This document shows positions 730-11,095 of a stretch of 43,010 nucleotides of DNA, in pieces. Within the stretch, counting starts at the first letter, position 1; each line of letters opens with the position of its first letter. A model generated the notes under the pieces. The model made no database searches, was not told where the DNA came from, and saw only the letters and a list, made by a program, of their open reading frames with translations. The translations under genes and the position numbers were made by a program. Location: the NCBI GenBank assembly GCA_913062955.1, contig CAJXZP010000029.1:1-43010 (forward strand), given 5' to 3'. Source of the DNA: an uncultured Flavobacteriales bacterium (lineage in GTDB: Bacteria > Bacteroidota > Bacteroidia > Flavobacteriales_G > Salibacteraceae).

Positions 730-3660
730 TTGGAAGTAGAACTTCAAACATTATCCCGTCAACTTTCGGGTGAATTAAAGACCGATGAAGCCGTAAAAAT
801 AATGTACGCTACGGATGCTTCGGCCTATCGTGAAATGCCGTTAGCCGTGGCCATTCCTACACATAAAAAAGACATTCAACTACTTCTTCAATTTGCCAAC
901 ACACAAGGAGTTGGATTAATACCTAGAACTGCGGGTACTTCCTTAGCTGGACAAGTAGTTGGAAATGGAATTGTGGTAGATGTTTCTCGGTTTTTCACTT
1001 CAATTTTAGAATTCAATTCCGCCCAACAATGGGTAAGCGTTGAACCCGGAGTGATTCGCGATGAATTGAATTACTTTTTAAAATCCAAAGGTTATCTTTT
1101 TGGTCCCGAAACATCTACTTCTAATCGAGCGATGATTGGAGGAATGGTTGGTAATAACTCCTGTGGCTCCAATTCGATTGTTTACGGTAGTACCCGAGAT
1201 CATCTTTTGGAAATAGAAGGCTTTTTAAGCGATGGATCGGAAATCACGTTTAAAGAACTCTCGAAATCTGAATTCAAGCAAAAACTAAACCTACCCACCG
1301 GTAATTTAGAAGGTCAGATTTACCGACATATATTTGATTTGCTTAAGGATACTACTACCCAAAACCAAATCACGGACAATTACCCTCATCCGGAAATAAA
1401 ACGGAGAAATACAGGATACGCATTGGATCTATTAATGGATTCGGAAGTATTTAATTCCAGTACTAAAAAATTCAATTTTTGTAAGTTAGTTGCTGGTAGC
1501 GAAGGCACTTTAGTCTTTATTACTCAAATAAAAATTGGGGTAACTCCCCTACCGCCCCAACATCAAGCCTTAATGGTGGCTCACTTCGATTCCCTAAGAG
1601 ATTCTTTAGAGGCCAATTTAATCGCTCTGAAATACAAACCCTATGCCGTGGAATTAATGGATCACCTTATCCTGGATTGCACCATAGGACATCCATTATA
1701 CGAAAAATACCGTTTCTTTTTAAAAGGAACACCAAAAGCCATATTGGCCATTCAGCTTCATGCCGAAACGGAAGAACAACTCCAAAAATCGGTTACGGAA
1801 CTGAAAGCGGAGTTAGTAAAAAACGGATATGGCTACCATTTCCCCATCCTAAAAGGCGCTGAAATCACCCAGGTTTGGGCCTTACGAAAAGCAGGTTTAG
1901 GATTACTAGCGAATATCCCTGGTGACGACAAAGCCGTACCGGTAATTGAGGACACATGTGTTCGGGTGACAGATCTGCCACAATACATTGAAGATTTTGG
2001 TCATAAATTAGCCCAAAGAAATCTGAGTTGTGTGCATTACGCCCATGCAGGAACGGGTGAATTGCATCTCCGTCCAATGATTAACTTAAAAACATCCGAA
2101 GGAGCTCAATTATTTAAGGATGTTGCCCAAGACATTGCGGATTTGGTGAAAAAATATGGTGGATCATTAAGCGGTGAACATGGTGATGGAAGATTACGAG
2201 GCGAGTTTATTTCACAAATGGTAGGGAGTATAATTTATTCAGAATTCGAAAAACTTAAAACGGTTTGGGATCCCAATAATATTCTTAATCCAGGAAAAAT
2301 TGTACATACCCCGGAAATGAATACGAGTTTACGGTACGAACCAGATGTACCTGTTAACACCTTTAATACGGCTTTTGACTTTTCCAAACACGGGGGTTTT
2401 TTGGAGTCGGTTGAATTATGTAATGGATCCGCTGATTGTCGCAAAACGGAACTTACAGGAGGCATTATGTGTCCATCTTACATGGCCACTAGAGAGGAAG
2501 CTCACACGACTCGTTCACGAGCGAATACCCTACGGGAGCTGATGACCAAACGTGCCCAAAAGGCGTTCAATTCTCCCGAATTGGCTCAGTCTATGGAACT
2601 GTGTTTAATGTGCAAGGGGTGTAAAATTGAATGTCCAAGTAATGTGGATATGGCTACATTTAAAAGTGAGTACCTGTATCAAAAAAGCTTGGTTCAAAAG
2701 CCTTCTTTTACCGAAAAGAAAATGGCTCATTTCAGTGATGGAATGAAACTGATACAGGCATTTCATCCCATTTCCACTGCGGTACTAAAATCGCCTTTAA
2801 AAGGAATTTTCAAAAAAGCGTTACACATTGCCCCGGAAAGAGAAATTCCCCTCCCCGAAAAAACGAGTCTATTTCGTTGGTATCAAAAAGAAGGGGAATC
2901 CACCCGAAAAAAATTCTTACAAAAGAAAAAGAAGGAAGTTCTCTTTTTCTGTGATGAGTTTACCAATTTCCTAGATGTTGAAGTCGGAAAAAAAGCGGTC
3001 ATGTTATTATGGTCCCTAGGATATGATGTCAAAATCACGGAGGAGTCGGAAAGTGGTCGTACGGCAATTTCAAAAGGTTTTTTAAAGGAAGCCAAAGAAT
3101 TAGCGCAACATAATGTGGCCCATTTTAGGGGAAAGGTAAACTCAGACACCCCATTAATAGGTGTTGAACCTTCCACCATTTTGATCTTTAGAGATGAGTA
3201 CCCTTCTTTAGTGGAAGACGCACTAAAAGAATCCGCAACTCTTTTAGGAAAACAGAGCTTTTTATTGGAAGAATTTTTATGTCAAGAAATGGATTTGGGA
3301 AATATTACCACTCAAGACTTTGACCACCGAACCCTTGAAATGCAAATCCATGGACATTGTCATCAAAAGGCCAATTCAAGTGTGTCTTTCACAAAAAAAA
3401 TATTAAACCTACCCCTACATGCAAAAGCTACAGTAATCCCATCTGGATGTTGTGGAATGGCCGGTTCTTTTGGTTACCAGCATTACGAAGTATCCATGAA
3501 AATTGGAGAGCTTGTATTATTCCCAGCAATCCGTAAAAAAGTAGACGGAACTATTACGGTAGCCGTTGGTACCAGTTGTCGAGAACAAATAAAGGAAGGT
3601 ACAAAAACGAATTCCAAACACCCCGCAGAGGTACTTTTTGATATGTTAGCTTCTAAATAG
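730..3660 (+). CDS. FAD-linked 2-hydroxyacid dehydrogenase fused to 4Fe-4S and CCG domains (YdiJ-like)
   Basis: A 976-residue fusion. The N-terminal half is a PCMH-type FAD domain (PRTAGTSLAGQ near residue 64; NNSCGSN near 140) followed by an FAD-oxidase C-terminal domain. The second half has ferredoxin-like cysteines (CNGSADC near 563; CLMCKGCKIECP near 623) and ends with cysteine-rich CCG motifs (HGHCHQK near 875; SGCCGMAGSFGY near 905). This order matches the YdiJ / D-2-hydroxyglutarate or D-lactate dehydrogenase group of about 1000 residues, which oxidises a D-2-hydroxyacid and passes electrons through FeS clusters. The start is a TTG that directly follows the upstream TAA. A later ATG would cut into the FAD domain, so TTG is preferred. 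The exact substrate is not known. Confidence 0.85.
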   Translation: MEVELQTLSRQLSGELKTDEAVKIMYATDASAYREMPLAVAIPTHKKDIQLLLQFANTQGVGLIPRTAGTSLAGQVVGNGIVVDVSRFFTSILEFNSAQQWVSVEPGVIRDELNYFLKSKGYLFGPETSTSNRAMIGGMVGNNSCGSNSIVYGSTRDHLLEIEGFLSDGSEITFKELSKSEFKQKLNLPTGNLEGQIYRHIFDLLKDTTTQNQITDNYPHPEIKRRNTGYALDLLMDSEVFNSSTKKFNFCKLVAGSEGTLVFITQIKIGVTPLPPQHQALMVAHFDSLRDSLEANLIALKYKPYAVELMDHLILDCTIGHPLYEKYRFFLKGTPKAILAIQLHAETEEQLQKSVTELKAELVKNGYGYHFPILKGAEITQVWALRKAGLGLLANIPGDDKAVPVIEDTCVRVTDLPQYIEDFGHKLAQRNLSCVHYAHAGTGELHLRPMINLKTSEGAQLFKDVAQDIADLVKKYGGSLSGEHGDGRLRGEFISQMVGSIIYSEFEKLKTVWDPNNILNPGKIVHTPEMNTSLRYEPDVPVNTFNTAFDFSKHGGFLESVELCNGSADCRKTELTGGIMCPSYMATREEAHTTRSRANTLRELMTKRAQKAFNSPELAQSMELCLMCKGCKIECPSNVDMATFKSEYLYQKSLVQKPSFTEKKMAHFSDGMKLIQAFHPISTAVLKSPLKGIFKKALHIAPEREIPLPEKTSLFRWYQKEGESTRKKFLQKKKKEVLFFCDEFTNFLDVEVGKKAVMLLWSLGYDVKITEESESGRTAISKGFLKEAKELAQHNVAHFRGKVNSDTPLIGVEPSTILIFRDEYPSLVEDALKESATLLGKQSFLLEEFLCQEMDLGNITTQDFDHRTLEMQIHGHCHQKANSSVSFTKKILNLPLHAKATVIPSGCCGMAGSFGYQHYEVSMKIGELVLFPAIRKKVDGTITVAVGTSCREQIKEGTKTNSKHPAEVLFDMLASK

Positions 3661-5949: not shown

Positions 5950-6301
5950 CTTGCAAAATTATGTGACCTATCCAAAATGGATGCTACCAACATGGAAGTA
6001 AAACGAATTATTATTCTTCCATTTTCAAACTGTTTTTTCTTTTACCGAGAAGTTTCAACCGGCAATAAATTATCTCCATCCACCTTAGATACTTACAATC
6101 TCGCTGTTTATGGTACTTGTAGACCATAAATAGGGAGATATTCCGGGTGAATATCAAAAAAATAATTACCAAGCAACCGAACAATATTTTGTTTTCCTTA
6201 CAAAAACACCTTTGACCCCCTTAATATGACTAAAAAAACGGCCTACTTGTTAACAATTGTTCGTAGTTTTCAACAATCCTCATCAAAACTCATGTGAACC
6301 C
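5950..6301. other. Intergenic region without a recognisable gene
   Basis: This stretch separates the divergent Smr and HU genes. Near the Smr start there is a minus-strand TAATTTTG (5954-5961), possibly its -7 element. An open frame at 5920-6129 overlaps the Smr start, has no family features and is not called. I see no RNA gene or repeat. Confidence 0.5.
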
Positions 6302-6331
6302 TTGCTATTACTGATCTATCACATATATTTG
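6302..6331 (+). promoter_or_regulatory. Promoter of the HU gene
   Basis: TTG at 6302-6304 and TATATTTG at 6324-6331 are separated by 19 nt, an exact fit to the Bacteroidota sigma-ABfr consensus TTG-N19-TAnnTTTG. The expected transcript would have a leader of about 40 nt before the HU start codon. Confidence 0.65.
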
Positions 6332-6375
6332 AAGGGAGTAATTAAATATAAAATAACCTCTTAATTAAAATTATT

Positions 6376-6648
6376 ATGAATAAAGCACAATTGATCGATG
6401 CAATGGCTGAAGGAGCTGGTATTTCAAAAGCAGCTGCAAAAAGCGCATTAGAAGCATTTGTAGGAGCAACTGAATCAACTTTAAAAGCAGGTGGACGTGT
6501 ATCACTTGTAGGATTTGGATCTTTCTCTGTTTCTCAAAGAAACGCTAGAACAGGTCGTAACCCACAAACGGGAGCTGAAATCCAAATCGCTGCTAAAAAT
6601 GTAGTGAAATTCAAAGCAGGTTCTGAACTTTCTGGATCAGTTAACTAA
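6376..6648 (+). CDS. HU family DNA-binding protein
   Basis: A 90-residue nucleoid protein. It starts MNKAQLIDAMAEGAGISKAAAKSA (given here in outline only) and carries the HU arm signature GFGSFSVSQRNARTGRNPQTG, with the conserved proline of the DNA-intercalating arm. Length and motif are typical of HU-beta. It binds and bends DNA as a dimer. It is a single gene with its own strong promoter and its own terminator, in keeping with high expression. Confidence 0.95.
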   Translation: MNKAQLIDAMAEGAGISKAAAKSALEAFVGATESTLKAGGRVSLVGFGSFSVSQRNARTGRNPQTGAEIQIAAKNVVKFKAGSELSGSVN

Positions 6649-6668
6649 GCTTAACGCTAAGAAATTAA

Positions 6669-6698
6669 AAAGCCTTTGCGTTTGCAAAGGCTTTTTTT
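6669..6698 (+). terminator. Intrinsic terminator of the HU gene
   Basis: AGCCTTTGC (6671-6679) pairs with GCAAAGGCT (6684-6692) around a GTTT loop, followed by a run of T. Confidence 0.85.
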
Positions 6699-6737
6699 GT
6701 GTCAAAAATGTACATTTCCATTTTTAAACCATTTACC

Positions 6738-7283
6738 ATGAAAAAACTACTATTCATACTTATTATCGGTTTCACATTTTTACCGTCCCTTTCTTGCTTT
6801 GCTCAAAGTACGAGTCAGCCTTTGTCAAAAAAAGAACTTAAAGAGAAATTACGGAAAGATCAAAATGAGCAACTCAAATTAATTTATCAATTAATGGAGT
6901 CTAAAAAATGGATTCTTCAAATTGAACTTGCGCAGTCCTTAAGTTTAGAAACAACCACATTTGAACCCAATTCTAATTTTATTATTTGCGAGAATGACCT
7001 GGCCACCATTCAATTTCCTGCCACCGAATTTATTCAAACCGGAGAAACAAAATTTACGGGACTTACAACCGAGGCAAATATTACCATTTATGAACTCCAG
7101 GAATTTAAGGACCATAAATTGATCCAATGCCTCATTCAATACCAAACCAATGATTTTCCTTGGGTAAATATGCGGTTTGAAATAAATTATGAGGGATTTG
7201 CCACTATTTCTTTCACCCAACTCAATGGTGTAAATTTCACATTATCAGGCACTATTGAATCTCAGGATGACAGGGAGGACTAA
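6738..7283 (+). CDS. Secreted DUF4251-like protein
   Basis: A 181-residue protein with a signal peptide ending near SLSCFAQ. The mature part has the pattern of the Bacteroidota DUF4251 family: an N-terminal Lys/Glu-rich helix (KKELKEKLRKDQNEQ), then a strand-rich domain with FIICENDLATIQFPA, a ...GLTTEANI segment and a C-terminal F.I.Y.G.A.I.F..L.GV....G.I pattern. Function is unknown for the family; members are periplasmic or outer-membrane associated. An in-frame ATG 39 bp upstream would add a hydrophilic stretch before the signal peptide, so the ATG at 6738 is chosen. Confidence 0.65.
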   Translation: MKKLLFILIIGFTFLPSLSCFAQSTSQPLSKKELKEKLRKDQNEQLKLIYQLMESKKWILQIELAQSLSLETTTFEPNSNFIICENDLATIQFPATEFIQTGETKFTGLTTEANITIYELQEFKDHKLIQCLIQYQTNDFPWVNMRFEINYEGFATISFTQLNGVNFTLSGTIESQDDRED

Positions 7284-7342
7284 AAGATGAAAAAAAAATA
7301 AAAAAAGCACTCAAAACCTGCATCAGTACTCAGATTTAATAT

Positions 7343-7350
7343 TACTTTTG
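7343..7350 (+). promoter_or_regulatory. -7 element for tRNA-Asp
   Basis: TACTTTTG, a TAnnTTTG match, lies 32 nt before the tRNA 5' end. No clear TTG is seen at the expected distance. Confidence 0.45.
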
Positions 7351-7382
7351 TCGCACGGAATCGGAGACGATTTAAGAAAATT

Positions 7383-7456
7383 GGTTTGGTAGTTCAGTTG
7401 GTTAGAATACCTGCCTGTCACGCAGGGGGTCGCGAGTTCGAGTCTCGTCCAGACCG
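7383..7456 (+). tRNA. tRNA-Asp (anticodon GTC)
   Basis: The cloverleaf closes by eye. Acceptor GGTTTGG (7383-7389) pairs with CCAGACC (7449-7455) with one G-T. The anticodon stem CCTGC/GCAGG holds loop CTGTCAC with anticodon GTC. The T-arm loop is TTCGAGT, and the discriminator base is G. CCA is not encoded. No neighbouring tRNA is present. Confidence 0.95.
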
Positions 7457-7466
7457 CTAAATTTTC

Positions 7467-7499
7467 AAAAGCTTCACAAAAATGTGAAGCTTTTTTTTT
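7467..7499 (+). terminator. Intrinsic terminator of tRNA-Asp
   Basis: AAAAGCTTCACA pairs with TGTGAAGCTTTT (7467-7478 with 7483-7494) around AAAA, followed by more T residues. Confidence 0.85.
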
Positions 7500-7534
7500 G
7501 TTTTAATCTTTTTTTTTCCCTACCCCACACCCCG

Positions 7535-7563
7535 AGCTACTCTTTTGATGAAAAGAGGTAGCT
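7535..7563. other. Long near-perfect hairpin upstream of the LytTR regulator
   Basis: AGCTACTCTTTT (7535-7546) pairs with AAAAGAGGTAGCT (7551-7563) around GATG, with a single bulged G at 7557. It is not followed by a T run, so it is not a standard terminator. It lies about 180 bp before the LytTR start codon and could be an operator or a leader structure. Nothing else recognisable lies between it and the regulator, apart from a weaker CCTCAAAA/TTTTGAGG inverted pair at 7608-7615 and 7651-7658. Confidence 0.45.
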
Positions 7564-7744
7564 ATTTTGGAGAACTTATATAAAAGACCATTTTAACCGA
7601 GTAATTACCTCAAAAATAATTGTTATTAAAATTCTCTCGTTGTGAAGCTCTTTTGAGGATCAATATCCTAAATTTACACCAGATACAAATAACTCAATAT
7701 CTGAAATTGTAAAATTACCGTAACCTACTAAAACGATACTAAAC

Positions 7745-8461
7745 ATGAAACAGATCCAAGCCGTAATTATCGATGATGAAATCGCAGCTGCCGAAAACAT
7801 TAGCATATTATTGGATTCCTATTGCCCTGAAATAAAAGTAATAGGCATGCAACATTCCATCCCTACTGGGTATAAACTCATCAAACAAATGCAACCCGAT
7901 TTAGTCTTCTTAGATATCTCTATGCCACCTGAAGGAACGGGTTTTGATCTTTTAGATATGTTTCCAAATCGTAATTTTCATGTCATTTTTGTAACTGCTC
8001 ATCAAGATTATGGATTGAAAGCCATCAAGCAACGGGCGTTTGATTATTTGTTAAAACCCATTGATTATAAAGAGCTCATCCAAAGTATGACTCAGTTTAC
8101 GGCATCCTTTGAAAAAACGAATTCCTTAACGGACTCTAATCAAGAAGCCATCATCAAATTATCCACAGATAGCGGTACACACGTAGTTAAACAACAACAA
8201 ATCCTATACTGTAAGGCTTCAGGGAGTTATACTGAAATTCATATTAAAGATCGATCTCCCATTCTTATTTCCAAATCGCTAAAGTTTGCAGAGGCGCAAT
8301 TAAATATGACCGTTTTTAAAAGAATTCACCGTTCCTATATTGTGAACCCCAGGTTCATTACTAAAATAAATAAAGAAGACGGAGGCAATATTTTTCTTGG
8401 TGACATCCAAATTCCTGTATCCAAAAATTACTGTGAAGATGTTTTTGATTTGGTGAATTAA
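7745..8461 (+). CDS. LytTR-family response regulator (orphan)
   Basis: A 238-residue two-domain regulator. The receiver domain (1-118) has the acidic pair D10/D11, phosphoacceptor D57 in LVFLDISMP, T83 and K103 in YLLKPIDY, so it looks fully phosphorylatable. The C-terminal LytTR DNA-binding domain (about 138-238) shows ILYCKASGSYTEIHI and the characteristic FKRIHRSYIVNP. Bacteroidota LytTR regulators are usually paired with a 7TM or LytS/YehU-type histidine kinase, but none is adjacent or elsewhere in this window. Immediately downstream are four repeat units each with three LytTR-like boxes, which makes this protein the obvious candidate to control them. Confidence 0.93.
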   Translation: MKQIQAVIIDDEIAAAENISILLDSYCPEIKVIGMQHSIPTGYKLIKQMQPDLVFLDISMPPEGTGFDLLDMFPNRNFHVIFVTAHQDYGLKAIKQRAFDYLLKPIDYKELIQSMTQFTASFEKTNSLTDSNQEAIIKLSTDSGTHVVKQQQILYCKASGSYTEIHIKDRSPILISKSLKFAEAQLNMTVFKRIHRSYIVNPRFITKINKEDGGNIFLGDIQIPVSKNYCEDVFDLVN

Positions 8462-8480
8462 TCTCCTCAAAAAATCATTC

Positions 8481-8564
8481 ATGAACTCAACCCAGGATTT
8501 CACGAACTCAAACAGGGGTTTCACAAACTTAGAAGAATTAATCTAACAGGATAGTATACATTGG
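8481..8564 (+). promoter_or_regulatory. Unit 1 control region: three LytTR boxes and -7 element
   Basis: Boxes at 8481-8489 (ATGAACTCA), 8502-8510 (ACGAACTCA) and 8523-8531 (ACAAACTTA) are spaced exactly 21 bp. On the complementary strand they match the LytTR half-site [TA][AC][CA]GTTN[AG][TG] at 8, 8 and 9 of 9 positions. The -7-like TACATTGG starts at 8557, 34 bp after the start of the third box. No separate TTG is seen, as expected for an activator-dependent promoter. Confidence 0.65.
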
Positions 8565-8568
8565 GGCC

Positions 8569-8668
8569 ATGAACGGGTTGGGTGTGATAATTTACCCATT
8601 CTTGCTCCATCTAAAACCTGGTCTTAGCACTACAAAAATACATAGAGCTCTGGTTCCACGTATTTTTC
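8569..8668 (+). ncRNA. Putative small RNA, copy 1
   Basis: Expected to start near 8569, just after the -7 element. The 5' hairpin pairs GAACGGGT with ACCCATTC with one C-A mismatch. The loop has TTGGGTGTGATAATTT, and the linker contains CTAAAACCTGGTCTTA. The terminator stem AAAAATAC/GTATTTTT (8634-8641 with 8660-8667) is the most decayed of the four in its upper part. The same region holds a 62-codon open frame from an ATG at 8569, but the differences between copies do not favour third codon positions, so I treat it as non-coding. Confidence 0.55.
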
Positions 8669-8915
8669 ACTACACTTCTTCTTCTTTTCTACTTGTAGGT
8701 TCCTTTGAACTTACCCCTTCCCTATTAAATCCAGAAAAGTCACTATTATTCAAATAAATCATTCGTCATTTTTAAAGTAGGAACTCCTTTTTACCGTCTA
8801 AAAAACGGATACATTTTAGCCTCTTATTTTTCTTATTTGAGAAAGAAACCCTTCAATTACACTAACTACAATAACTCTAATTAATTAGGGGAATTTAATT
8901 GAGCATAAAACATTT

Positions 8916-8999
8916 ACAAACTACACCTCTACTTTCACAAACTAAAATATGGGTTTCAAGAACTTTGAAAAATTAAACTAAAGGGATCCTATACATTTG
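8916..8999 (+). promoter_or_regulatory. Unit 2 control region: three LytTR boxes and -7 element
   Basis: Boxes at 8916-8924 (ACAAACTAC, 7/9), 8937-8945 (ACAAACTAA, 8/9) and 8958-8966 (AAGAACTTT, 8/9) again have 21-bp spacing. The -7 is a consensus TACATTTG at 8992-8999, 34 bp from the start of box 3. This is the best -7 match of the array. Confidence 0.65.
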
Positions 9000-9003
9000 T
9001 GGC

Positions 9004-9103
9004 ATGAACGGATTGGGTGTGATAATTTACCCGTTCTTGCTTAACCTAAAACCTAGTCTTAACACTAAAAAATACTTGGAGCTTCGGTTCCAAGTATTTT
9101 TTA
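9004..9103 (+). ncRNA. Putative small RNA, copy 2
   Basis: The best preserved copy. The 5' hairpin pairs GAACGG with CCGTTC around a loop containing TTGGGTGTGATAATTT. The linker is CTTAACCTAAAACCTAGTCT followed by TAACACT. The terminator is a 14-bp perfect stem (9067-9080 with 9089-9102), prolonged by a G-T and a C-G pair that close a TTCG tetraloop, and its 3' arm ends in six T. The open frame from ATG 9004 is shifted relative to other copies by a one-base change in the A run, which argues against a shared peptide. Confidence 0.65.
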
Positions 9104-9307
9104 CACCACTTTTTATTCTTTTCTACTTGTAGGTTCCTTGGAACTTAGAACTTCCTGTTCTATTTCCAGAAAATCCGATACATTTGAAACCAATGGTTAG
9201 ATACTTTTAAAAAAGTAAGGACTTTTAAACCGTCAAAAAAATGGACAAATAGGATGCGTTTATTTTTTTTTTAGAGAAATAACGGTCACAAACATTAACT
9301 AGAATAG

Positions 9308-9336
9308 CTCTATTTAATTTGGGAAATTAAATAGAG
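9308..9336. repeat. Perfect 13-bp inverted repeat with a GGG centre
   Basis: CTCTATTTAATTT (9308-9320) and its exact complement (9324-9336) flank GGG, just upstream of the LytTR boxes of unit 3. Unit 2 has a decayed version (about 8876-8903), and unit 4 keeps only the right arm (about 9708-9724). The position next to the first box suggests a second protein-binding site or a terminator-like insulator between units. Confidence 0.6.
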
Positions 9337-9348
9337 CATAAAACATTT

Positions 9349-9432
9349 ATAAACTCTATTCCTACTTTCACAAACTAAAACCTGTATTTCAAGAACTTAT
9401 AAAAATTCAACTAAAAGGATCCTATACATTCG
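9349..9432 (+). promoter_or_regulatory. Unit 3 control region: three LytTR boxes and -7 element
   Basis: Boxes at 9349-9357 (ATAAACTCT), 9370-9378 (ACAAACTAA) and 9391-9399 (AAGAACTTA), each 8/9 matches, are spaced 21 bp. The -7 TACATTCG at 9425-9432 is again 34 bp from the start of the third box. Confidence 0.65.
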
Positions 9433-9436
9433 TGGC

Positions 9437-9536
9437 AAGAACGGATTGAGTGTGCTTATTTACCCGTTCTTGCTTAACCTAAAACCTAGTCTTAACACTA
9501 CAAAAATACTTGGAACTCCGGTACCAGGTATTTTTC
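9437..9536 (+). ncRNA. Putative small RNA, copy 3
   Basis: The 5' hairpin is GAACGG/CCGTTC. The loop is the most changed of the four (TTGAGTGTGCTTATTT), while the linker is identical to copy 2 over the CCTAAAACCTAGTCTTAACA core. The terminator stem (9502-9513 with 9524-9535) has one T-G wobble in place of a T-A pair and a TCCG tetraloop. The ATG present at the RNA start in the other copies is AAG here, so a conserved peptide is unlikely. Confidence 0.6.
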
Positions 9537-9562
9537 ACCCCACTTCTTCTTCTTTTCTACTT

Positions 9563-9582
9563 GTAAGTTCATATGAACTTAC
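9563..9582. promoter_or_regulatory. Dyad of two inverted LytTR-like half-sites after the terminator (unit 3; copies in all units)
   Basis: TAAGTTCATATGAACTTA within 9563-9582 is a perfect palindrome, and each arm matches the LytTR half-site at 9 of 9 positions. Matching dyads are at 8695-8714 (unit 1), 9129-9148 (unit 2) and 9951-9970 (unit 4), where the left arm is TAGGTTC. As RNA these would be 7- to 8-bp hairpins with G-U/A-U exchange. Whether the element acts as DNA or RNA is open. Confidence 0.5.
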
Positions 9583-9735
9583 CCCTTCCCTTTTATTTCC
9601 ATTTCAGCATTTACATTTAAAACCACCGGTAGTGACTTTTAAGGTCGTAAGGGATTATTGACCGTCAAAAAAAATGGACAAATGAGAAGCTCCTATTTTT
9701 CTTATTAGGGAAATTAAATAGAGCAGAAAACATTT

Positions 9736-9819
9736 ATAAACTCTATTCCTACTTTCACAAACTAAAATCTGTGTTTCAAGAACTTAGAAGAATAAAACTA
9801 AAAGGATACTATACATTCG
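9736..9819 (+). promoter_or_regulatory. Unit 4 control region: three LytTR boxes and -7 element
   Basis: Boxes at 9736-9744 (ATAAACTCT), 9757-9765 (ACAAACTAA) and 9778-9786 (AAGAACTTA), each 8/9, are spaced 21 bp, with TACATTCG at 9812-9819, 34 bp from the start of box 3. The geometry is the same as in units 1-3. Confidence 0.65.
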
Positions 9820-9823
9820 TGGT

Positions 9824-9924
9824 ATGAACGAGTTGGGTGTGATAATTTGCTCGTTTTTGCTTAATCCAAAACCTAGACTTAAAACTAAAAAAATACTTGG
9901 AGCTCCGGTTCCAAGTATTTTTTA
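9824..9924 (+). ncRNA. Putative small RNA, copy 4
   Basis: The 5' hairpin is GAACGAGT paired with GCTCGTTT. The G-C pair at stem position 6 of copies 1-3 is an A-T pair here, which is a compensatory change. The loop TTGGGTGTGATAATTT is identical to copies 1 and 2. The linker is TTGCTTAATCCAAAACCTAG and the following CTTA. The terminator is a perfect 14-bp stem (9888-9901 with 9910-9923) with a TCCG tetraloop. Confidence 0.6.
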
Positions 9925-10051
9925 CTTCACTTCTTCTTCTTTTCTACTTTGTAGGTTCGCTTGAACTTACCTCTTTCCCTTTACCTCTGAAAGGACAAAA
10001 AAAACCAAACAATTTGACACCGAATTATAATAATTCTACATTCACAAAATG

Positions 10052-10059
10052 TACTTTTG
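10052..10059 (+). promoter_or_regulatory. Possible -7 element for fmt
   Basis: TACTTTTG matches TAnnTTTG and lies 85 bp before the fmt start. It falls inside the tail of repeat unit 4, at a segment shared with the other units as GACTTTTAA, so it may have arisen from repeat sequence. No TTG is found at the usual spacing. Confidence 0.35.
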
Positions 10060-10144
10060 ACCCTCACTAAAATGGGCAAATGGTATTATCCTATTTTTCA
10101 ATTTTAATGACCTGATCGCTAGTTAAATCATATTCTATTTCAAA

Positions 10145-11095
10145 ATGAAACCACTTAAAGTCGTCTTTTTAGGAACTCCAGATTTTGCCGTTGAAAGTTT
10201 AAAGGCCATTGAAAATTCTGCTCACCAAATTGTTGGGGTGGTGACGATGCCCGACAAAAAAATGGGAAGAGGAAGAAAGTTAACCGGATCTGCGGTAAAG
10301 ACCTATGCGGAATCCAAAGGCTTATTTTTAATGCAACCCGAAAAACTAAAAAACCCGGATTTTGTCAACGAATTGAAGGGTTTAAATGCGGATATATTTG
10401 TGGTGGTTGCTTTTAGAATGTTACCTGAAATGGTTTGGAATATGCCCATTCATGGTACGGTAAATGTTCACGGCTCTTTATTGCCTCAATATAGAGGTGC
10501 TGCCCCTATTAATTGGGCAATTATTAACGGAGAAACGGAAACGGGAGTGACTGTTTTCAGACTCAAACATGAAATTGATACGGGAGATATTTTACTCCGA
10601 AAATCCGTAGCTATCCATTCCAACGATAATGTAGAAACGATCCATGATCAATTAATGATTTTGGGAGGACAAGCAGTGGTAGAAGGATTGGATAAAATTG
10701 CAAATGGAAGTCCGGAGTATTTACCACAACTAAACGCCTCGGATTTAAAAAGTGCCCCTAAGATTTTTAAAGACACCTGTAAGATAGACTGGAACCAACC
10801 CGTGGAGAAGATTCACGATTTCATCCGTGGTTTAAGTCCATACCCGGCATCATGGACCACCATCCAAAACGGGGATTCTGAGATAGATGTAAAAATTTAT
10901 TATGCCTCTTTTGAAATAAAGGAAAATTCTATACCCGGAAAAATTGAAACGGATCACAAATCCTATTTCAAAATATCCGGAACAAATGGCCAATTAATGA
11001 TCCAAGAGTTACAAGTTTCCGGAAAACGAAAAATGCCTACCGCAGATCTATTAAGAGGTTTCTCTTTTGAGGCCGACTGTAATATTTCGAATTAA
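10145..11095 (+). CDS. fmt: Methionyl-tRNA formyltransferase
   Basis: A 316-residue cytoplasmic enzyme that formylates initiator Met-tRNA using 10-formyl-tetrahydrofolate. It begins KVVFLGTPDFAVESL and has the formyltransferase signature VNVHGSLLPQYRGAAPINWA, with the catalytic Asn/His pair and the later ETGVTVFRLKHEIDTGDIL. The C-terminal OB-like domain is present (from about 205), so length is normal. It is followed 38 bp later by the lyase gene on the same strand. The usual def or other translation neighbours are absent. Confidence 0.95.
   Translation: MKPLKVVFLGTPDFAVESLKAIENSAHQIVGVVTMPDKKMGRGRKLTGSAVKTYAESKGLFLMQPEKLKNPDFVNELKGLNADIFVVVAFRMLPEMVWNMPIHGTVNVHGSLLPQYRGAAPINWAIINGETETGVTVFRLKHEIDTGDILLRKSVAIHSNDNVETIHDQLMILGGQAVVEGLDKIANGSPEYLPQLNASDLKSAPKIFKDTCKIDWNQPVEKIHDFIRGLSPYPASWTTIQNGDSEIDVKIYYASFEIKENSIPGKIETDHKSYFKISGTNGQLMIQELQVSGKRKMPTADLLRGFSFEADCNISN

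Follow-up and report, generated by a model that had tools for sequence, protein, structure and literature searches.

In the 43,010-nucleotide stretch of Flavobacteriales DNA analysed here (the window), a gene for a LytTR-family response regulator is followed by four tandem units, each of which combines three phased LytTR boxes, a -7 element and a predicted RNA of about 100 nt. The anatomy of the units, their spacing, their linkage to the regulator in two species and their non-coding character are observed here, and the best explanation for them is probably a two-component output module consisting of LytTR-activated sibling small RNAs. Points that count against this explanation are the fold of unit 1, the lack of conservation of the RNA in a congener, a weak covariation signal, a linker-based target search that yielded no convincing mRNA, and a conserved block past the terminator, which is unaccounted for if transcription stops at that terminator.

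The regulator gene (7745..8461, plus strand) is intact and encodes a protein of 238 amino acids with the receiver and LytTR DNA-binding domains of a LytTR response regulator, both of which score well over their Pfam cut-offs (Response_reg, 61.9 bits with a cut-off of 30.2; LytTR, 64.4 bits with a cut-off of 22.6). A DUF4251 gene and a tRNA-Asp gene flank it on the 5′ side, and fmt follows at 10145 on the same strand. Since neither neighbour is a kinase, the preliminary description of an intact LytTR regulator without an adjacent kinase was confirmed. A search of the contig collection for homologues of the regulator returned only the known congener.

The 1.7 kb between the regulator gene and fmt are home to the four units, which were delimited as direct-repeat copies at 8449-8694, 8884-9129, 9317-9562 and 9704-9949. 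Their start-to-start spacing is 435, 433 and 387 bp, and they have diverged to 76-88% identity to the third unit over 246 nt. Whole-genome BLASTN found these four copies and none besides, which, together with the repeat coordinates, establishes the tandem array of four diverged units that had been claimed for this interval. Among the units, the boxes, the -7 element, the RNA and a palindrome further downstream are mostly 82-93% identical, as against about 44% in the diverged spacer beyond. Within this spacer, each unit has towards its 3′ end another island of weak conservation (CCGTCaaaaaaATGGaCAAAT...TATTTTTC; about 0.70 identity), at 8794-8832, 9230-9268, 9662-9701 and 10061-10099. Between units 2 and 3, a perfect 14-bp inverted repeat with a 3-nt loop (GCTCTATTTAATTT/AAATTAAATAGAGC; 9307-9337) directly precedes the box array of unit 3.

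The TTCACAAACT-like boxes are spaced exactly 21 bp from start to start and fit, on the reverse strand, seven to nine positions of the sequence [TA][AC][CA]GTTN[AG][TG], which we take to be the 9-bp LytTR consensus. They begin at 8478, 8499 and 8520 in unit 1 (8478..8531, minus strand; 8, 8 and 9 of 9 consensus matches), at 8913, 8934 and 8955 in unit 2 (8913..8966, minus strand; 7, 8 and 8 of 9), at 9346, 9367 and 9388 in unit 3 (9346..9399, minus strand) and at 9733, 9754 and 9775 in unit 4 (9733..9786, minus strand), with 8 of 9 matches in every box of the last two units. Four such phased triples were observed in the region, whereas 1000 Markov shuffles averaged 0.15 and never exceeded 3; the four are paralogous copies and not independent occurrences. 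LytTR proteins recognize 9-bp direct repeats separated by a 12-bp spacer, that is, with a period of 21 bp (PMC6193735), and the sequence of the array has both these repeats and the position upstream of a promoter that characterize LytTR-regulated promoters.

In all four units a -7 element of the type TATACATTNG follows box 3 at a distance of exactly 35 bp on the plus strand, namely TATACATTGG in unit 1 (8555..8564), TATACATTTG in unit 2 (8990..8999) and TATACATTCG in units 3 and 4 (9423..9432 and 9810..9819). The motif TAnnTTTG is that of the -7 region recognized by flavobacterial sigma-A (PMC9723704). No -33 motif was discernible by eye in the promoters of the units, which fits the expectation for activator-dependent promoters. 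A sequence that may be a fourth LytTR box, weaker than the other three (TCCTTTTAG, minus strand), lies 20 bp after box 3, immediately 5′ of the -7 element, at 8544-8552, 8978-8986, 9411-9419 and 9798-9806.

From just 3′ of the -7 element onward, the predicted RNA forms a hairpin at its 5′ end; about 27 nt of linker then lead to a long terminator hairpin, which has an A/U foot. This structure is predicted on the plus strand for unit 2 (9000..9103; fold z = -5.1), unit 3 (9433..9537; z = -5.6) and unit 4 (9820..9924; z = -5.3). Hairpin and terminator are degraded in unit 1 (8565..8669, plus strand; z = -1.1), where pairs are lost in both hairpins and the fold is little better than that of shuffled sequences. 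Covariation among the units amounts to a single compensatory change along with several changes on one side of a pair that preserve the pairing, and the observed score was reached by 35 of 500 shuffles, a weak signal that reflects the presence of four paralogues only. The core of the linker, AAAACCU...CUUA, is conserved and single-stranded in the predicted fold. When mRNA targets were sought via the extended linker complement, the units themselves and one site with two mismatches were recovered, which is within chance, and nothing convincing emerged. Feedback of the linker on the mRNA of the regulator was considered and rejected because the regulator ranks last among the 36 gene starts in the window. 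Judged by sequence, fold and non-coding character, units 2-4 are candidates for the functional class of sibling sRNAs under one response regulator, with transcripts that are predicted, and the array as a whole looks like a regulator-driven family of such RNAs.

Two other sequenced species of the genus (G001 and G002; the window genome is G000) were available for comparison, and both possess an orthologue of the regulator, with 59% identity in G001 and 69% in G002. Directly behind the G001 gene lies a single unit. Its three boxes are spaced 21 bp apart, the distance from box 3 to TATACATTTG is exactly 35 bp, and the sequence that follows has an RNA-like fold of hairpin and terminator (z = -3.5). 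The RNA of this unit has no recognizable relation to those of the window, as a model built from the window units gave no match in G001. Of the homologues with conserved structure that were envisaged beside LytTR genes, the promoter anatomy is thus present in this congener and the RNA sequence is not. In G002, the regulator gene has the same neighbours on its 5′ side as in the window, namely a DUF4251-like gene and tRNA-Asp, and the contig ends inside boxes of 21-bp spacing. The end of this contig (L050:3920-3960) reads CTGTCTCTTATACACATCTGACGCTGCCGACGA and looks like residual transposase-adapter sequence in the public assembly.

A composite pattern made up of two boxes with a 21-bp period, a 27-nt gap and TANNTTNG occurs in the three genomes of the genus at four sites in the window genome, i.e. 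in the units, at one in G001, immediately 3′ of the orthologous regulator gene, and at none in G002, with no site for the backward control. It is absent from the other genomes of the order. Across 395 genomes of the class, six further sites were found versus two control sites; none of the six loci encodes a homologue of the regulator, and they were not accepted as units. Likewise, our own covariance model of the RNA identified homologues in this genome only, and three weak matches were discarded because no regulator homologue is nearby. In L057, the model weakly matched 2456-2528, about 3.5 kb 5′ of the regulator of that locus, but this match resembles the terminator of a gene and not a unit. 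A match in another genus (L017) lies inside coding sequence and is due to chance.

Conservation among the window units amounts to 0.82-0.92 in boxes 2 and 3, the -7 element, the hairpins and the linker, stays at 0.85-0.87 in a pyrimidine tract and palindrome behind the terminator, and then falls to 0.44. This block, taken from the conservation profile and given without strand (8670..8714, 9104..9148, 9538..9582 and 9925..9970 in units 1 to 4), extends the conserved unit by about 45 nt past the terminator and had been overlooked in the preliminary description, whose three boxes and fixed-distance -7 element stand, whereas the end of the unit at the terminator does not, nor does the proposed structure in the degraded unit 1. 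The palindrome GTAGGTTCnnnnGAACTTAC (8695-8714, 9129-9148, 9563-9582 and 9951-9970) has nearly invariant arms, GTAGGTTC/GAACTTAC, and a variable centre of 4 nt. Its arms resemble half-sites of LytTR boxes, and the left one (UAGGUU) could pair with the linker (AACCUA). A role as genome-wide operator was rejected, given that exact and near-exact matches are found in the units only and other matches do not exceed the control.

The palindrome could belong to the RNA, serve as an operator in the DNA or form the 5′ portion of an RNA from the opposite strand. In the first case the transcript might reach about 150 nt and contain three hairpins, with the first hairpin and U run acting as a pause site or partial terminator and the tract and palindrome forming the functional 3′ part. 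This would be a variant of our best explanation and not its opposite. It agrees with conservation that holds through the palindrome and drops only thereafter, with nearly invariant arms around a variable centre and with the restriction of the palindrome to the units. By contrast, the hairpin and U residues at about +100 are built like a strong terminator, nothing comparable is seen behind the terminator of the G001 congener, and either of the other two roles could account for the palindrome. We thus regard the longer RNA as unlikely, albeit worthy of consideration.

Two further LytTR regulators of G001, with 45% and 41% identity, also carry arrays of 21-bp-spaced boxes just downstream, so that the layout of regulator, array and output recurs within the genus. 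Both arrays precede genes whose secreted products have type IX sorting domains, and in one of the two loci the distance from box to -7 element is 36 bp. The two loci (L053:1813-4263 and L054:1996-6450) have in common a leader, CTCCCATT...GGAGC...GCGGAAAATCC...AAAGAGTACGCT, which has no gathering match in Rfam and is possibly an undescribed structured leader.

Arrays in front of protein genes raise the question of whether the RNA of the window is a relic leader and the units are functionless duplicates of a piece of a promoter that has lost the gene once located behind it. The decayed structure of unit 1 would be in line with such an origin. However, boxes, -7 element, RNA and palindrome have mostly remained 82-93% identical next to flanking spacer of about 44% identity, and units 2-4 by far surpass shuffled sequences in their folds, which makes non-functional copies improbable. 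It is less probable still that the twelve phased boxes beside the regulator gene serve as a DNA decoy that titrates the regulator, with the RNAs as by-products, because the -7 element at its fixed 35 bp, the 5′ hairpin, the linker and the terminator roughly equal the boxes in conservation, and the G001 congener has a single array and yet retains -7 element and terminator in the same register. Hardly credible, finally, and largely refuted is a small peptide made by near-leaderless translation from an ATG at about +4 that opens the frame MNGLGVIIYPFLLNLKPSLN...: the ATG is present in units 1, 2 and 4, and frames of 62, 42, 74 and 46 codons are open, but unit 3 has AAG instead, units 2 and 4 are out of frame owing to a one-base deletion and an insertion, respectively, none of the four units contains a stop in this frame ahead of the terminator, differences between units 1 and 3 show no third-position excess (15/10/12 by codon position), a further count of differences over the codon positions gives 9/6/7, and the frame directly after the -7 element of the G001 congener closes within a few codons.

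For a module of LytTR-activated sibling RNAs we propose that the regulator is phosphorylated in trans, probably by an orphan propeller/Y_Y_Y-type kinase encoded elsewhere, and that the phosphorylated protein would bind the three 21-bp-phased boxes upstream of each unit and recruit polymerase to four weak promoters, with transcription from the -7 element. Each transcript of about 100 nt would consist of a 5′ hairpin, a single-stranded linker and an intrinsic terminator, and the four sibling sRNAs would act in trans by base-pairing with mRNAs. Transcription, activation by the adjacent regulator, partner kinase, base-pairing and targets are what we infer in this scheme. A single ancestral regulator-linked unit may have given rise to the four copies by tandem duplication, by which dose would have been raised and the copies left free to diverge; unit 1 may be decaying.

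With regard to the kinase, the orthologous regulator of G001 is preceded by a propeller/Y_Y_Y/His_kinase sensor of 829 amino acids. The C-terminal half of this kinase recurs alongside it, in tandem, as a near-identical copy (L051:63-824 and 957-3446; 92% identity). The best matches to the kinase in the window genome include two adjacent propeller/Y_Y_Y histidine kinases (L085:2973-5816 and 5965-7833) at the end of contig C19, where they adjoin a MatE transporter gene; according to the list of LytTR genes of this genome, none is located on C19. Homologues of the kinase in the window genome and in G002 have no regulator gene alongside in the stretches examined. Based on these similarities, the orphan kinases of C19 and of G002 are candidate partners of the regulator, a pairing that we infer.

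In the clade of the window, the output of the system is predicted to be a short RNA. It is tempting, though decidedly tentative, to speculate that the module is self-contained: the regulator would have no recognizable promoter targets of this kind other than its own tandem sRNA genes, and a two-component system would thereby operate wholly via RNA. Related regulators of the genus, whose similar arrays lead to secreted proteins, would then record a switch from protein to RNA output.

A comparison with Rfam 15 covariance models yielded no relevant match to the units, even at relaxed E-value, and none to VR-RNA, RNAIII, LhrC, Qrr or csRNA for those having models; nor was an LytTR-driven sRNA of Bacteroidota found in the open-access literature. 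Both results uphold the earlier statement that no described family of this phylum matches the array. LuxO-Qrr and CiaR-csRNAs had been named as precedents, while the closest ones, the LytTR-driven RNAs of VirR and AgrA, had gone unmentioned. VirR is a regulator of the AlgR/AgrA/LytR (LytTR) class, and the RNAs that it controls are dispersed. In Clostridium perfringens it directly activates several regulatory RNAs (VR-RNA, VirT, VirU) by way of direct repeats that occur in pairs 5′ of the promoter (PMC2838878). VirR/VirS thus shares with the window system a regulator of the LytTR class, several regulatory RNAs and direct repeats, but differs in having two boxes instead of three, Firmicute promoters and mutually unrelated RNAs, and there is no relation in sequence. 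The LytTR regulator AgrA of Staphylococcus activates RNAIII, which is encoded beside its own operon (PMC4227749). Unlike in the window, the output is a single large RNA, which doubles as the message for a peptide and is made from a divergent promoter, with kinase and pheromone genes adjacent.

LisR, CiaR and LuxO are not known to be LytTR proteins, and in their systems the regulator gene is not known to lie directly upstream of the sRNA array. As in the window, one response regulator drives several sibling sRNAs in LisR-LhrC1-5 of Listeria, CiaR-csRNAs of Streptococcus and LuxO-Qrr of Vibrio (PMC4132741; PMC4211561), whose RNAs are unrelated to the window units. A paralogous sRNA family of Bacteroidota is FopS/GibS of Bacteroides thetaiotaomicron, which is in Rfam and has 14 loci and a single-stranded 5′ seed (PMC11697453). 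The window units differ in beginning with a 5′ hairpin, and no linkage to LytTR is reported for FopS; provided that FopS is among the Rfam 15 models, the search of these gave no match to it either.

Since LytTR-driven regulatory RNAs and sibling sRNAs under one regulator are both documented, the array does not represent a new principle. Two-component-controlled regulatory RNAs are, however, hardly known in Bacteroidota, which are not known to have the familiar Hfq-centred biology. The window shows regulator, operator, promoter and RNA side by side, and the one-copy and four-copy states in sister species along with the secreted-protein outputs of the paralogues make it possible to test directly how an RNA output evolves and what sRNA copy number is worth. 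Unrelated in sequence to these systems and assigned to no described RNA family, the array is, in our best reading, mechanistically similar to VirR-VR-RNA, AgrA-RNAIII and LisR-LhrC.
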